64,000 bases of DNA from Halalkalicoccus jeotgali B3 (GTDB lineage: Archaea; Halobacteriota; Halobacteria; Halobacteriales; Halalkalicoccaceae). Of this stretch, positions 35,177-41,628 are shown in pieces. How positions within the stretch are numbered: the first letter of the stretch is position 1; every line of letters begins with the position of its first letter. The stretch is taken from positions 2,185,345-2,249,344 of the forward strand of contig NC_014297.1 in NCBI RefSeq assembly GCF_000196895.1, given 5' to 3'. The notes under the pieces were generated by a model. The model searched no databases. It was not told the DNA's origin and worked only from the letters and a program-made list of their open reading frames with translations. Made by a program: the position numbers and the translations under genes.

Positions 35177-37135
35177 ATGCCAGAAGGTCACAATAATCTC
35201 ATGGATGATATCAACCGGCGCCGGCTCCTACAGGGGATGGGGGCGGCCGGCGTCACGGGCGTTGCCGGCTGTCTCGGCGGCGACAACGATGACGAGGAGG
35301 ATTCAAGTGGTCCGGAGGTCAGCGACCGCGAGGAGGTCGATTTCGCCGATCTACAGGAAGGTGGGACGCTTCGGGGTGCGGTCGGCGCGAACGTCGCCTC
35401 CTTCGATCCGCCTTACAGTACGGACACAACCTCGACGCAGGCTCAGAACTTCGTTTTCGAGACCCTGATCACGAACGACCGGGAGGGCAACTACTACCCG
35501 TGGCTCGCGGAAAGCTACGAGCTGGTCGAGACCCAGGACATCGACCGGACCGCCTACGCCGACTACATGACGAGCGTGAGCACGGACGAGGAGGGCGTCT
35601 TCGAAACCGACGAGCAGGTGATCATGCAACACCCCGAGGACGATCCCCTAGAGAGCGACGGGGTCCGCGTCATCACGCCCGAACAGGCCTCGGCGGCCGT
35701 CGACGACGGCACCTTCGGGATGCAGTATCGCTACCGGCTCCGCGAGGGGGTCCAGTTTCACAACGGCGAGGAGCTGACCGCCGAGAACGTCACTGCCAGC
35801 GTCGAGCGCTACGAGAACTCCGACGTTTCGGCCCAGACGTTCGACTCGCTGTTGCACGCCCGCGCAATCGACGAGTACACGGTCGATCTGTTCGCACAGG
35901 TCCCCGACGCCGAGGCCGAAGGACAGCTTCCGGGGATCTACATATTCACGACCGAACAGGCCGGCCTCGAGGACGGGGCGATCGATCCCCGCCAGGGTAA
36001 CGAACCCATCGGGACCGGTCCCTACCAGTTCGAGGACTTCTCGGACGAACAGTACTACGAGCTCTCGAAGTTCAACGAATACTGGGTCGAGGCCATGGGC
36101 GTCGATTCGATCGACTGGTTCGACGGCCCCGAGGAGTTCCCCGACGGCCCGCTCGTCGACGCCATCGAGATGGAGATCGTCCCCGACGCCGCGAACCGGG
36201 CGGCCGCGCTCCGGAACGACGAGATCGACATCACGACCGGACTGGCGACCGACACCCTCGACGAGTTCAATTCGGACGACGGCTTTACCGTTACCGGCAT
36301 CGAGACCGGCGGGTACGAGTACATCCAGTACCCGGTCAACGTCGAGCCGTGGGGCGACCAGCGCCTGCGAACGGCTGTCAACCACCTCGTCCCCCGCGAG
36401 AACATCGTCCAGAACGTCCTCAATGGGTGGGCGCGCCCGGCCTGGACGCCCATCCCCGAACTCGCAGAGGAGTCGGGCACGACCGACCCCGAGGCCCTCG
36501 AAGAGGAACTCCGCCCCGCAAACGAGTACGACACCGAACGCGCCGGGGAGCTTCTCGACGAGGTCGGCGAGGACCTCGGGCTTGAGTACCCCCTCGAAGT
36601 CACTCTCGAAACCAATGCGGACAACCCCGACCGCGTGCAGATGGTCGAGTTGATCGCCGAGTCGATGGCCCAGACGGAGTACTTCGAGACTTCGGTCGAG
36701 ACCTACGAGTGGAACGCCTACATCGCGCGGGTGCTCGATCCCGAGTACCCCGACGGGGGAATCATCCCGTGTATCGGGCTCTCGGGGACGTTCAACCCCG
36801 GCAGTTTCTGCGATGCGCTCCACGGCACCGCGAACATCGGGCAGTGTTGTAACCTGACGGGGATCAGCGACCCCGAGTTCGACCGACTGGTCGACGCCGC
36901 ACGCTTCGACATCGCGGTCGTCGAGGACGAACAGCTTCGGGCCGAGCGCTACGACGAGATCTGGCGGCTGCTGGCCGATCAACGCTACAGTTCGCTCACC
37001 CACTTCGACCTGATGACGGCCGTGAGCAACACCGACATCACCGGCTTTGGCATCTACCCCTTCGACGAGGGGATCTACAGCTTCGCGCTGTACAACCCGA
37101 CCGAAAGCCAGGCGATGTGGCTCGAACGCGAGTGA
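35177..37135 (+). CDS. Peptide ABC transporter substrate-binding lipoprotein
   Basis: The 652-residue extracellular receptor belongs to SBP family 5. The twin-arginine signal NRRRLLQG and lipobox VAGC lie within the first 34 residues. Family segments include LREGVQFHNGEELTAENV and IGTGPYQFEDF. It delivers peptides or related solutes to the two permeases downstream. The N-terminus could start at in-frame ATG 35201, but the TATA position favours 35177. A chain of micro-ORFs covers most of the 89-bp gap to dppB. Confidence 0.92.
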   Translation: MPEGHNNLMDDINRRRLLQGMGAAGVTGVAGCLGGDNDDEEDSSGPEVSDREEVDFADLQEGGTLRGAVGANVASFDPPYSTDTTSTQAQNFVFETLITNDREGNYYPWLAESYELVETQDIDRTAYADYMTSVSTDEEGVFETDEQVIMQHPEDDPLESDGVRVITPEQASAAVDDGTFGMQYRYRLREGVQFHNGEELTAENVTASVERYENSDVSAQTFDSLLHARAIDEYTVDLFAQVPDAEAEGQLPGIYIFTTEQAGLEDGAIDPRQGNEPIGTGPYQFEDFSDEQYYELSKFNEYWVEAMGVDSIDWFDGPEEFPDGPLVDAIEMEIVPDAANRAAALRNDEIDITTGLATDTLDEFNSDDGFTVTGIETGGYEYIQYPVNVEPWGDQRLRTAVNHLVPRENIVQNVLNGWARPAWTPIPELAEESGTTDPEALEEELRPANEYDTERAGELLDEVGEDLGLEYPLEVTLETNADNPDRVQMVELIAESMAQTEYFETSVETYEWNAYIARVLDPEYPDGGIIPCIGLSGTFNPGSFCDALHGTANIGQCCNLTGISDPEFDRLVDAARFDIAVVEDEQLRAERYDEIWRLLADQRYSSLTHFDLMTAVSNTDITGFGIYPFDEGIYSFALYNPTESQAMWLERE

Positions 37136-37151
37136 TCGCGCCGCCGAACCG

Positions 37152-37228
37152 ATGAGTAGCGGCCGTCCCGACCAGTACAGCTACGACGACCGACTCCCAA
37201 CGAACGACCAACGATGACCGCGACATGA
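37152..37228 (+). other. Chain of two micro-ORFs leading into the permease gene
   Basis: ATG 37152 opens a 21-codon frame ending TGA 37215-37217. That stop overlaps ATG 37214 of a 4-codon frame, whose TGA (37226-37228) overlaps the permease ATG at 37225. Both junctions are ATGA. The 21-residue peptide has an acidic, Tyr-containing composition, unlike the usual Arg-rich shadow frames. It may keep ribosomes moving from the receptor gene to the permease. Confidence 0.35.
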
Positions 37229-38181
37229 GTTTACGACGCTTCATACTGAATCGAGTGCTGTCGATCATCCCGATCCTCTTCGGCGTGTCGGTGATCACCT
37301 TCGGGCTGGTGCACCTCACACCGGGCGATCCCATCAGCCAGATGGTCGCGCTGAACCCCGACGTAACGGCGAGCCAGGAGGCCCAGTTGCGCGCGCGATA
37401 CGGGCTCGACGGCCCGGTCTGGCAGCAGTACCTGACGTGGATGGGCAACGTCCTGACGGCCGATTTCGGCACCGTCATCAGAACCAACCGCGAGGTTTCC
37501 GCGATCGTTCTCTCGCGGCTGCCCGAGACGATCGCGCTTGGCCTGTTCGGGTGGGCCTTCGCGCTGATCATCGCGATCCCGACCGGGATCTACGCGGCGG
37601 TCAACAAAGACGAGTTCGGCGACACCGTCAGTCGCTTTCTGGCGCTGTCGGGCATCTCGATCCCGAACTTCTGGCTCGGGTTGATGCTCATTCTCGTCGG
37701 CGCGCTCTGGCTGGGCTGGTGGCCGGTGCTTGCACCCTCCCGATTGTCGCTGTACCACCCCCAGATGCTGTGGTACCTCATCCTGCCCGGCCTGACGATC
37801 GGCACCGCTTCTGCGGCCTCGATCATGCGGGTGATGCGCACCTCGATGACCGAGGAGATGAACAAGGAGTACGTCACCGCCGCCCGCGCGAAGGGGCTGC
37901 CCGAGCGACAGGTCGTGCTCAAACACGTCCTGCGGAACTCGCTGATCTCGGTGGTGACGCTGGCGGCGACGCTGACGGCGGGGATCGTCGCCGGGTCGGT
38001 CGTCGTCGAGACCGTCTTCAACTGGCCCGGATTGGGTCGGGAGTTCATCCAGGCGATCACCACCCGGGAGGTGAACCTCATCATGGCGATCACGCTGTTT
38101 ACGGGCGTGTTCATCATCCTGGCGAACCTGCTTGCGGACATCCTCTATGCGGTGCTCGATCCGCGGATCAGATACGATTAA
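37225..38181 (+). CDS. dppB: Peptide ABC transporter permease (DppB-like)
   Basis: This 318-residue inner-membrane permease has six hydrophobic segments. The first is close to the N-terminus (RFILNRVLSIIPILFGVSVI), and the ATPase-contact EAA loop EYVTAARAKGLPERQVVLKHVLRNS is at about 215-240. The N-terminal STPGD-like motif appears as LTPGDPI. It pairs with the following DppC-like permease, whose gene begins 3 nt after the stop. Confidence 0.93.
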   Translation: MSLRRFILNRVLSIIPILFGVSVITFGLVHLTPGDPISQMVALNPDVTASQEAQLRARYGLDGPVWQQYLTWMGNVLTADFGTVIRTNREVSAIVLSRLPETIALGLFGWAFALIIAIPTGIYAAVNKDEFGDTVSRFLALSGISIPNFWLGLMLILVGALWLGWWPVLAPSRLSLYHPQMLWYLILPGLTIGTASAASIMRVMRTSMTEEMNKEYVTAARAKGLPERQVVLKHVLRNSLISVVTLAATLTAGIVAGSVVVETVFNWPGLGREFIQAITTREVNLIMAITLFTGVFIILANLLADILYAVLDPRIRYD

Positions 38182-38184
38182 ACC

Positions 38185-39219
38185 ATGTCTACAGAACGAG
38201 GCCGAATTCGGATCACCGGGTTCGACGCGGAACGTGTCGAAGAGCGCGACCGTCTCTCGGAGTGGGAGACGGAGAGCGAGACGGGCACACGGAGTCGGTG
38301 GCGCCGGGGACTGGACCGATTTACACACAATCGATCGGCGATGCTCGGCGTCGCGGTCGTCGTCGCGATGTCGTTGCTGGCGATCTTCTCGCGGCCGATT
38401 ACCGTCGGCGGTGTGCTCGTCCAGCCGATCTCGCTTGCGCCACACGCACCGACCGACATCCTATATCTGCAGGACCCTTCGGTCGGGGTCTACGACCCGC
38501 CGTCGCTTGCCTACCCCATGGGGATCGACGGCTCGGGCCGCGACCTGTTCTCGCGGGTGCTGTACGGCGGGCGCTTTAGCATCTCGATCGGGTTCATCGT
38601 GGTCGCGCTCACCGCCGGTTTCGGCGCGGTCTACGGGGCCGTATCGGGCTACTACGGCGGCTGGATCGACGAGATCATGATGCGGGTCGTCGACACCATC
38701 TTCGCGTTCCCCGGCCTGATCCTGGCGCTGATCATCGTCGCCATCCTCGGCGGGGGCTACTGGCAACTCGTCCTCGCGTTTACCCTTTTCGGGTGGGCGG
38801 GCTACGGGCGACTGGTTCGCGGGGAGGTGCTCTCGATCAAGGAAAACGAGTACGTGCTGGCGGCCAAGGCCCTCGGGGCGAAAGACCGATCGGTGATCTT
38901 CAGACACATCATCCCGAACGCGATGCCGCCGTTGCTCGTGTTGGCTTCGCTCAACATCGGCACCGTCGTCATCGGGGTCGCGGCGCTTGGCTTTCTCGGA
39001 CTGGGGATGCCGCCGGGCACCGCCGAATGGGGGACGATGCTGGACGCGACCCGCGCGACGCTGATTCAGGGACCGGGCGGGGCGATCCCGTGGTGGGCGA
39101 CGGTCTATCCGGGGCTCGCGATCTTCTTGTTCGTGATGTCGATGAACATGATCGGGGACGGCATCAACGACGCGCTCGACGCCCAGCAAACCGGCGTCGG
39201 ACGCGGGGGTGAGGAGTGA
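38185..39219 (+). CDS. dppC: Peptide ABC transporter permease (DppC-like)
   Basis: This 344-residue permease has a long hydrophilic N-terminus (about 50 residues), then a first membrane helix and the OppC_N-type segment. The signature GIDGSGRDLFSRVLYGGRFS precedes the transport domain, and the EAA loop is EYVLAAKALGAKDRSVIFRHIIPNA. Its stop overlaps the ATG of the next ATPase gene by 1 nt. Confidence 0.93.
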   Translation: MSTERGRIRITGFDAERVEERDRLSEWETESETGTRSRWRRGLDRFTHNRSAMLGVAVVVAMSLLAIFSRPITVGGVLVQPISLAPHAPTDILYLQDPSVGVYDPPSLAYPMGIDGSGRDLFSRVLYGGRFSISIGFIVVALTAGFGAVYGAVSGYYGGWIDEIMMRVVDTIFAFPGLILALIIVAILGGGYWQLVLAFTLFGWAGYGRLVRGEVLSIKENEYVLAAKALGAKDRSVIFRHIIPNAMPPLLVLASLNIGTVVIGVAALGFLGLGMPPGTAEWGTMLDATRATLIQGPGGAIPWWATVYPGLAIFLFVMSMNMIGDGINDALDAQQTGVGRGGEE

Positions 39220-40295
39220 TGGCGCTGCTCGAAGTCGAGGACCTGACCGTCGAGTTCTACACCGAGGAGGGGGTCGTCACCGCCGTCGAGGACCTCTCCT
39301 ACCGGATCGAGCGCGGCGAGAAGTTCGGCGTCGTCGGCGAATCGGGGGCCGGAAAGAGCGTCACCGCTCTCTCGTTGATGCGCCTCATCGAGAGCCCAGG
39401 GCGGATCGCTAGCGGCGAGATCCGCTTCAAGGGCGAGGACATCCTCGAACTGAGCGAACGGGAGGTCAGGGACCTGCGTGGCAACGAAGTGGCGATGGTC
39501 TTTCAGGACGCCCAGACCGCGCTCAATCCCGTCTACACCGTCGGCGAACAGATCGCAGAGGCGATCCGCCACCACCTCGACTACGACGACCGGGAGGCAC
39601 GCGAGCGAACCGTCCAACTGTTGGACGAGGTCGGCATCCCGGAAGCCGAGACGCGGTATTCGGATTACCCACACGAGTTCTCCGGCGGGATGCAACAGCG
39701 CGCGGTCATCGCGATGGCGCTGTCGTGCGAGCCCGACCTGTTGGTCTGTGACGAACCCACGACCGCACTCGACGTGACCATCGAGGCCCAGATCCTCGAT
39801 CTGATCGAGGAACTCGCCGACGAGTTCGACGTCGCGGTCCAGCTCATCACGCACGATCTGGGCGTCATAGCGAAGGTCTGTAACCGCGTGATGGTGATGT
39901 ACGCGGGCAAGCCCGTCGAGAAGGCGCCCGTCGAGGAGCTGTACTACGATCCCAAGCACCCCTACACCGTCGGGCTGATGAGTTCGATCCCGCGGGTCGG
40001 CGACGAGCGAGACCGTCTCCGGACGATCCCGGGGACGATGCCCGATCTCGTCGAACTGCCACCCGGCTGTAGCTTTCATCCCCGGTGTCCGTACGCCGAG
40101 GAGGTCTGTACCCTCGAGGAGCCACCGTTGCTCGACCCCGAGACGGGCGCGGCAGCGATCGAAACGACCGCCCACTCGGCGGCCTGTCTCGAATGGGCCG
40201 GCAAACTGGAGGCGGGGCTCGACTACGAGGTCGAAATACGGGACGACGAGGACACGCACCGAAACCCGGCCCGCGCGGAGGGAAGCGATGACTGA
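39219..40295 (+). CDS. dppD: Peptide ABC transporter ATPase (DppD-like)
   Basis: This 358-residue ATPase has Walker A GESGAGKS (40-47), the Q-loop FQDAQTALNP, the signature FSGGMQQR (154-161) and Walker B LLVCDEP. The C-terminal oligopeptide-transport domain has four cysteines at 284, 290, 297 and 323. In a characterised bacterial DppD the equivalent residues bind an Fe-S cluster. The ATPase pairs with the next gene, and the two overlap by 8 nt. GTG 39216 is also in frame. Confidence 0.93.
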   Translation: MALLEVEDLTVEFYTEEGVVTAVEDLSYRIERGEKFGVVGESGAGKSVTALSLMRLIESPGRIASGEIRFKGEDILELSEREVRDLRGNEVAMVFQDAQTALNPVYTVGEQIAEAIRHHLDYDDREARERTVQLLDEVGIPEAETRYSDYPHEFSGGMQQRAVIAMALSCEPDLLVCDEPTTALDVTIEAQILDLIEELADEFDVAVQLITHDLGVIAKVCNRVMVMYAGKPVEKAPVEELYYDPKHPYTVGLMSSIPRVGDERDRLRTIPGTMPDLVELPPGCSFHPRCPYAEEVCTLEEPPLLDPETGAAAIETTAHSAACLEWAGKLEAGLDYEVEIRDDEDTHRNPARAEGSDD

Positions 40296-41628
40296 GCGGG
40301 CCGAGGAGCCGATCCTCCGGATCGAGGGACTACAGAAGTACTACGAGACCAGCGGGGGCTTTCTCGATACCCTGCTCGGACGCGGCGGGACGGTAAAGGC
40401 CGTCGACGGGATCGACCTCGAACTGTACGAGGGCGAAACCCTCGGGATCGTCGGCGAGAGCGGCTGTGGGAAGACCACGCTCGGACGGTCCCTGCTACGG
40501 TTGATCGAACCGACGGACGGGTCGGTCTACTACCGAGGCGAGGAGGTCACCGATATCTCGAACACGAAGCTACGGGAGCTGAGAACGGACCTCCAGTACA
40601 TCTTTCAGGACCCGTTTTCGAGTCTGAACCCCAGACTGACCGTCGGCGACATCATCGGCGAGCCGCTCGACATCCACGGGATCGCCTCCGGCGAAGATCG
40701 TACCGAGCGGATCTACGACCTCCTCGACACGGTGGGGTTGAACCCGAGTCACGCCAACCGCTACCCCCACGAGTTTTCGGGCGGCCAGCGCCAGCGCATC
40801 GGCATCGCCCGCGCGCTCGCGGTCGACCCGGAGGTGATCGTCTGTGACGAGCCGGTCAGCGCGCTCGACGTCTCGGTACAGGCCCAGATCCTCAACCTGC
40901 TCGAGGACCTCCAGACGGAGTTGGGCCTCTCGTACGTCTTTATCGCCCACGATCTGAGCGTCGTCGAACACATCTCCGATCGGGTCGCGGTGATGTATCT
41001 GGGCGAGGTCGCCGAGACCGGACCGACCGAGGCGGTGTTCTCGCCGCCCCATCACCCCTACACGGAGGCGTTGCTCTCTGCGATCCCCGAACCGGATCCC
41101 CGCTGGGAGGGCGAACAGGTCATTCTCTCGGGGACGGTGCCCTCACCGATCGATCCGCCCTCGGGCTGTCGGTTTCACACGCGCTGCCCGCGCGTCATCC
41201 CGCCCGATGAGTACGACCTCCCGGGCGGCGAGTGGCGCTCGCTGCTCGATTTCAAACTGCGAGTCGGGGGCGCCGACGGCCTCGAAGCGCTCACCGCGGC
41301 GAACGACGACGGCGAGGACCCTTCGGAAGTCCCGCGATCGGTCCTCGACGAGCGGATCAGGGCCGAGTTCGACCTCCCGACGCGACTCTCCGATCCGAGA
41401 GCCGAGGAGGTGCTTTCGGAGGCGATCGAGGCGCTCCACGCCGGCGACCTCGAGGGGGCCAGCGAACGCCTCGAATCGACGTTCGTCTCGCCGTGCGAGC
41501 GCGACGAGCCGGCGCTGACCCGAACAGGCGAGGACCACCGGATCGCGTGTCACCGCTACGACGGGCGCTACGACGCCGGGCGACCCGAGTCGTTCGCGGC
41601 GGGAACGGACGCCTCCGCGGACGACTGA
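40288..41628 (+). CDS. dppF: Peptide ABC transporter ATPase (DppF-like) with C-terminal insertion
   Basis: This 446-residue ATPase has Walker A GESGCGKT (56-63), signature FSGGQRQR (163-170) and Walker B VIVCDEP. It is about 100 residues longer than usual. The oligopeptide-transport C-terminal domain begins normally with Cys294 and Cys300 (GCRFHTRCP). It is then interrupted by residues 301-402, and its second half [10 protein letters not shown]...ACHRY (Cys403, Cys421) follows. The insertion is partly helical and acidic. It is the last gene of the operon. Confidence 0.92.

Follow-up and report, generated by a model that had tools for sequence, protein, structure and literature searches.

A stop-start linked mini-ORF recurs above chance between the receptor and first permease genes of haloarchaeal peptide-transporter operons

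Background

How do ribosomes reach the first permease gene of a peptide-transporter operon when it starts well downstream of the receptor gene? We address this question for the dpp operon of Halalkalicoccus jeotgali B3, contained in a 64,000-nt stretch of DNA (the window) that sits on a 2.81-Mb contig of the 3.70-Mb genome. The original prediction for this locus had pointed to two nested stop-start overlaps leading from the receptor gene to the permease gene, and had suggested that they may tune the receptor:permease ratio.

Results

Layout of the operon and of the dppA-dppB spacer

The operon consists of the following genes.

35177-37135, + strand: dppA-like receptor gene (solute-binding lipoprotein; PF00496, E 1.3e-59; ORF table)
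37225-38181, + strand: dppB-like permease gene (PF00528, E 7e-41; PF19300)
38185-39219, + strand: dppC, operon member downstream of dppB
39219-40295, + strand: dppD, operon member downstream of dppC
40288-41628, + strand: dppF, last gene of the operon, downstream of dppD

The dppA-like ORF ends with a TGA at 37135, and the 89 nt between dppA and dppB are the only long gap in the operon, the later junctions being tight (3, -1 and -8 nt for dppB-dppC, dppC-dppD and dppD-dppF, respectively). The dppB gene of the window shows 97% identity to dppB of Halalkalicoccus paucihalophilus. For dppA there are two candidate ATG starts 24 nt apart (35177 and 35201), the start may be 35201, and the upstream region contains an AT-rich stretch, TATATATGTATA. 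The spacer and its borders contain the following elements.

37132-37137, + strand: GTGATC over the dppA stop, 14 nt before 37152; within 37100-37230 no match to the anti-Shine-Dalgarno complement is longer
37152-37217, + strand: 21-codon ORF (ATG at 37152, stop at 37215-37217) with the peptide MSSGRPDQYSYDDRLPTNDQR
37214-37217, + strand: ATGA overlap of the 21-codon stop and the 4-codon start
37214-37228, + strand: 4-codon mini-ORF of 15 nt, MTAT (ATG at 37214, stop at 37226-37228)
37225-37228, + strand: ATGA overlap of the 4-codon stop and the dppB start

The two nested overlaps claimed in the original prediction are thus exact in the sequence. Their distances are those of termination-reinitiation pairs, which overlap or are separated by at most about 20 nt: both links are 4-nt overlaps, and 16 nt lie between the dppA stop and the ATG at 37152. 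Apart from the sub-strings of GTGATC itself, no anti-Shine-Dalgarno match of at least 5 bases occurs in 37100-37230, and no Shine-Dalgarno (SD) 5-mer, an element that is helpful but not essential in reinitiation pairs, is present at -22 to -4 of dppB in the window. The spacer RNA has no structure above that of shuffled sequences (z 1.13; an equal or better fold in 174 of 200 shuffles).

Chance odds for the window spacer

The arrangement might be accidental, in that short frames in GC-rich spacers can end on the ATGA of MS- starts, and any excess of such frames among relatives would then come from shared ancestry and an imperfect shuffle null. For the window spacer taken by itself, a frame ending as ATGA on dppB appeared in 2650 of 20,000 dinucleotide-preserving shuffles of the 89 nt (13%). 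The nested chain appeared in 36 of 20,000 shuffles and in 37 of 20,000 on repeat, and with its first ATG at most 20 nt from the dppA stop in 15 of 20,000; the chain odds of about 0.2% are not a p-value, because the spot was picked from the whole window.

The linking frame across haloarchaeal dppA-dppB spacers

We collected dppB orthologues from the named genomes and from 90 of the 392 genomes of the order, excluding L086-L090 (one partial, four bacterial), and picked the upstream gene of each spacer by coding score. The 144 loci gave 103 distinct spacers after two without a usable start (L149 and L158) had been set aside, and 101 spacers after two without a usable upstream gene (L083 and L185) had also been removed, with gaps ranging from -4 to 114 nt. 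A linking frame, defined as a frame ending as ATGA on dppB, is present in 29 of the 48 spacers that have a gap of at least 45 nt and start dppB with ATGA, while 6.87 are expected from dinucleotide shuffles, a 4.2-fold excess; when the gap is at least 20 nt, the count is 32 of 76 versus 8.3 expected. The stop-start link into dppB, as predicted for the window, is therefore recurrent above chance in haloarchaeal orthologues. The excess persists when the 48 spacers are thinned to less than 0.60 alike (13.1 of 25.9 versus 4.0 expected) or to less than 0.55 alike (10.6 of 21.6 versus 3.4; median tail p 1e-4, worst 0.006). An earlier, lax clustering of the spacers had given p 0.014, and the subsequent thinning gave smaller values.

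When the 48 spacers are sorted by the frame of their ATGs, enrichment is found in the linking frame only: 1, 29 and 11 spacers have an ATG in the dppB frame (frame 0), the linking frame (frame 1) and the third frame (frame 2), versus 10.0, 9.7 and 9.8 expected, respectively. Since the third-frame count is near expectation, the shuffle null looks sound there, which speaks against an accidental origin, and the dppB-frame ATGs are depleted, as alternative starts would be. In the representative sets, the contrast of linking and third frames by itself (13 versus 6) reaches no more than p 0.08.

Sorted by gap, the ATGA link is found in 0 of 22 spacers at 19 nt or less (including four -4 overlaps), 3 of 29 at 20-44 nt (1.5 expected), 11 of 26 at 45-69 nt (2.85 expected) and 18 of 24 at 70-120 nt (3.84 expected), and it is present in under half of the dppA-dppB spacers (34 of 78 at gaps of at least 20 nt). 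A 4-codon frame at -11 occurs in Halalkalicoccus, Natronococcus, Halobiforma and SHRA6, an 18-codon frame at -53 in eight distinct Halorubrum-type spacers, and the other linking frames are mostly of 5-13 codons. Nested chains were seen in 3 of 76 spacers versus 0.2 expected, namely, in the window, in L008 via a different first ATG, and in L049.

All three closest Halalkalicoccus retain the 4-codon frame, which reads MTAT in the window and MTVL and MTVI in its two closest relatives. Across the compared neighbour spacers, retention of the linking frame was seen in 30 of 61 comparisons, where 3-mer identity alone predicts 26, so that maintenance at single sites is weak. Moreover, the peptide positions of linking frames vary without codon bias, a pattern that would fit a relay of ribosomes but would equally fit neutral DNA. 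An alignment of the three closest Halalkalicoccus genomes also revealed the following block, which is 100% identical among them, whereas four-fold sites in the flanking dppA and dppB are 78-80% identical.

37168-37194, + strand: 27-nt identical block

Two other origins of the spacer were considered and set aside. A remnant of an ancestral overlap with dppA is not favoured, because link-bearing gaps fall in all three residues modulo 3. A dispersed repeat was rejected, as in a DNA search the whole spacer was matched only in G000 (H. jeotgali), G002 and G004, the remaining matches being mostly to the dppB start or short patches.

Control regions and other permease families

For controls we used 56 stretches of the H. 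jeotgali genome (1.16 Mb), with gene starts predicted in this analysis. Mini-ORFs were found in 15 of 146 codirectional spacers of 45-120 nt versus 9.0 expected. In divergent upstream regions, where no operon is possible, mini-ORFs ending at -4 to +4 of predicted starts were seen in 33 of 285 cases versus 23.9 expected. Control regions thus exceed the same null by a general 1.4-1.7-fold, part of which probably reflects inaccuracies of the null or of start prediction. Upstream of dppA, examined in 36 of the dppA-dppB loci, frames stopping on the start or at most 15 nt from it show no excess (6 versus 8.7 expected).

We also analysed two further permease families, family 2 (query P0002) and family 3 (query P0001), each comprising the automatically returned loci, a few extras, and 20 and 40 regions, respectively, that were chosen for spread with their spacers unseen; one of the 70 loci of family 3 (L327) was dropped. 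The stop window of -4 to +4 was selected once family 2 had been viewed, and family 3 was analysed with it already fixed. Mini-ORFs ending within it were found at 14 of 47 permease starts in family 2 (3.19 expected) and at 10 of 47 in family 3 (3.37 expected), in agreement with the dppAB family (family 1). With expectations multiplied by 1.4 and the strictest thinning, the p values are 0.00093, 0.00022 and 0.071 for families 1, 2 and 3, respectively, so that family 3 is supportive but weak; its ATGs are mostly in frame 0 and not in the ATGA-linking frame. Over the three families, an SD 5-mer precedes the permease in 18 of 60 cases with a link versus 14 of 130 without one (p 0.0014, relatedness ignored).

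Two observations concern individual loci of these families. In L333, L334, L337, L340 and L342 (family 3), the mini-ORFs stop 0-4 nt ahead of the permease, and their ends contain SD-like GGAGGTG or GGTGATC. In L282 (G231:C47, family 2), whose upstream gene reads like a solute-binding protein, three short frames are chained by ATGA, TAATG and ATGA into the permease start, a depth of chaining that was reached in 162 of 20,000 shuffles of this spacer.

Weighing these results, we regard an accidental origin as unlikely, but as deserving serious consideration. The 13% odds in the window, the excess in control regions, the absence of codon bias and the loss of the 21-codon start in both closest species (see below) are all compatible with it, whereas the 4.2-fold excess that survives thinning, its restriction to the linking frame, its absence upstream of dppA and the agreement of two other families argue against it.

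Promoter or separate 5' end for dppB

A second possibility is that dppB is entered via a 5' end of its own, arising from an internal promoter or from cleavage of the mRNA in the spacer, the small frames being bystanders or simply the first codons met. The original prediction had named a promoter belonging to the permease as the finding that would speak against it. We scored the window spacer with a TATA matrix built from 284 divergent upstream regions, in which an AT peak is clearly visible at -30 to -25, and no TATA box was recognisable in it. The best TATA-like 6-mer there is the following.

37180-37185, + strand: GCTACG, TATA matrix score 1.16

This score is below that of 95% of the 284 divergent regions and of 84% of random operon 60-mers, making a promoter within the window spacer unlikely, and on this point the original prediction stands. 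Among the 23 link-bearing spacers of at least 60 nt, moreover, the best TATA-like site lies at -34 to -24 in 13%, versus 64% of divergent regions. There is also no AT peak 24-36 nt before the linking ATGs; thus, as far as a sequence test goes, the small ORF has neither the TATA-like box in the spacer nor the AT peak of leaderless initiation. A scan of the spacer for bacterial-type promoters and terminators found none, bacterial models being uninformative for an archaeon.

Five relatives (L010, L011, L038, L039 and L110) carry TTTACA or TTTATA 41-44 nt before dppB (scores 5.5-8.5), at about the place of GCTACG. These hexamers are absent in the window and in its two closest relatives, which have GCTACG there, and an internal promoter has apparently been lost in these three. 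In addition, Halobacterium salinarum is reported to have a transcript processing site between its dppA2 and dppB2 (PMC8303175), and, assuming orthology, cleavage of the message in the dppA-dppB spacer is possible. Both observations lend something to entry at a separate 5' end; with the low TATA-like scores of the window and of the link-bearing spacers set against them, we consider this explanation rather improbable.

The 21-codon frame

The original prediction had described the 21-codon peptide as acidic and Tyr-rich. With 4 acidic, 3 basic and 2 Tyr residues, it is ordinary: values at least as extreme arise in shuffled open frames with p = 0.14 for acidic residues, 0.10 for Tyr, 0.29 for few basic residues and 0.14 for acidic minus basic. 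The peptide matches no Pfam family. Among the three closest Halalkalicoccus species, the ATG at 37152 is present in H. jeotgali only, having been replaced by GTA in both closest species (L008, H. paucihalophilus, identical in sequence to L037, and L009, the locus of G004), so that the peptide is not conserved. In L009, a 5-nt insertion destroys the first overlap and the frame runs on into dppB, while in L008 the first ATGA link is re-established by a 5-codon frame that opens with another ATG. The 21-codon ORF thus has neither the conserved start and frame nor the purifying selection of a small-protein gene, and the spacer has neither the conserved peptide nor the RNA structure of a regulatory leader. 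The notion of the peptide as a selected product is not supported, and the ORF is probably not a gene. That a regulatory leader peptide or small protein gene sits between dppA and dppB, for which the open frame and its weakly coding-like codon use (score 2.1) could be cited, is very improbable in view of these results and of the Halorubrum 18-codon linking frame, which varies about equally by codon position (10/11/8) and has 2 synonymous-only versus 13 amino-acid-changing codons.

Discussion

A proposed termination-reinitiation relay into dppB

The reading that we prefer, with a probability of roughly 0.5, is that the mini-ORF of the spacer feeds ribosomes to dppB by termination-reinitiation in a sequence-indifferent manner. 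On terminating at the end of the 4-codon frame, ribosomes would already have the dppB start at hand within the ATGA overlap and would reinitiate on it, only the position of the stop mattering and the peptide being irrelevant. In H. jeotgali, the 21-codon frame could, at partial efficiency, carry the relay further back in the direction of dppA, and permease would then be made at a fraction of the receptor level. Translation of the frames, reinitiation, the site at which ribosomes first load and any effect on the ratio are what we infer from the arrangement; the last link is probably functional, and the longer peptide probably is not.

Published distances bear on both ends of such a relay. For coupling of gene pairs in E. 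coli, 15 nt from the end of the upstream gene are enough (PMC10666635), and by analogy a 15-nt mini-ORF ending on the dppB start would fit the rules of reinitiation. Reinitiation in Haloferax volcanii had almost vanished in all three pairs once the gap reached 22-23 nt, and in one pair a 13-nt gap already cost 60% of it and a 22-nt gap the whole (PMC10666635); a relay from dppA over 16 nt would therefore be partial at best. In the relatives the linking frame mostly starts 25-83 nt past the dppA stop, which by these distances is too far for a relay from dppA in most of them. The SD motif of Haloferax is reported to have no role in de novo initiation and often to aid reinitiation (PMC6728339).

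Relation to known systems

The arrangement most resembles the coupled small ORFs of mycobacteria, unannotated short frames that end as RTGA on the next start, a linkage which is over-represented there and which, in the example described, is kept while the peptide is not (PMC4633059). The same features are found here: the 4-codon stop forms ATGA with the dppB start, linking frames are over-represented across loci, and linkage is kept without peptide conservation, both in the three Halalkalicoccus and in the Halorubrum 18-codon frame, although retention above the neutral level is weak. In contrast to the mycobacterial example, which is at a leaderless transcript start, the frame here lies inside an archaeal operon, between receptor and permease genes, with no recognisable promoter. 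Ribosome delivery by a short ORF through an AUGA coupling has been demonstrated with reporters for uPPE2-PPE2 of M. tuberculosis, which differs in its B12 riboswitch control, its location at the transcript 5' end and its longer uORF (PMC11260477).

Among haloarchaea, the overlapping gene pairs of H. volcanii share with the present case the ATGA overlap and a strict dependence on distance, but those are annotated pairs, whereas here a 4-codon non-gene takes the place of the upstream gene and the real one is 89 nt away (PMC6728339, PMC10666635). Short frames ahead of full genes are also known from the long 5'-UTRs of H. volcanii, where 3 of 16 uORFs precede ABC transport genes, one of them dppA15; however, these have 15-31 codons in leaders of 150-250 nt, and stop-start linkage is not described in the section that covers them (PMC4983044). 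Delivery of ribosomes by a short upstream ORF is one of the roles proposed for coupling in a review (PMC12548453), and the bicistronic design named there likewise uses a short first cistron to load the second, but is engineered and bacterial. Our literature search, by title and the start of the abstract and with few subscription journals, returned no work on archaeal receptor-permease mini-ORFs.

Implications

We tentatively suggest, with more doubt than for the relay in the window, that haloarchaeal peptide-transporter operons commonly use hidden mini-cistrons, often of 4-18 codons and without a conserved peptide, as relays from the receptor to the first permease gene, replacing a direct overlap where spacers are long. 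Some of them would be chained two or three deep, as in the window, L008, L049 and L282, and they would set the permease below the receptor while being invisible to annotation. How ribosomes are supplied to an operon gene 50-95 nt downstream is a real question, to which sequence-indifferent mini-ORFs would, if the suggestion is true, be an answer. They would also offer a simple route to abundant receptor with little permease, and a class of links would be missing from the numbers of coupled gene pairs counted in archaea.
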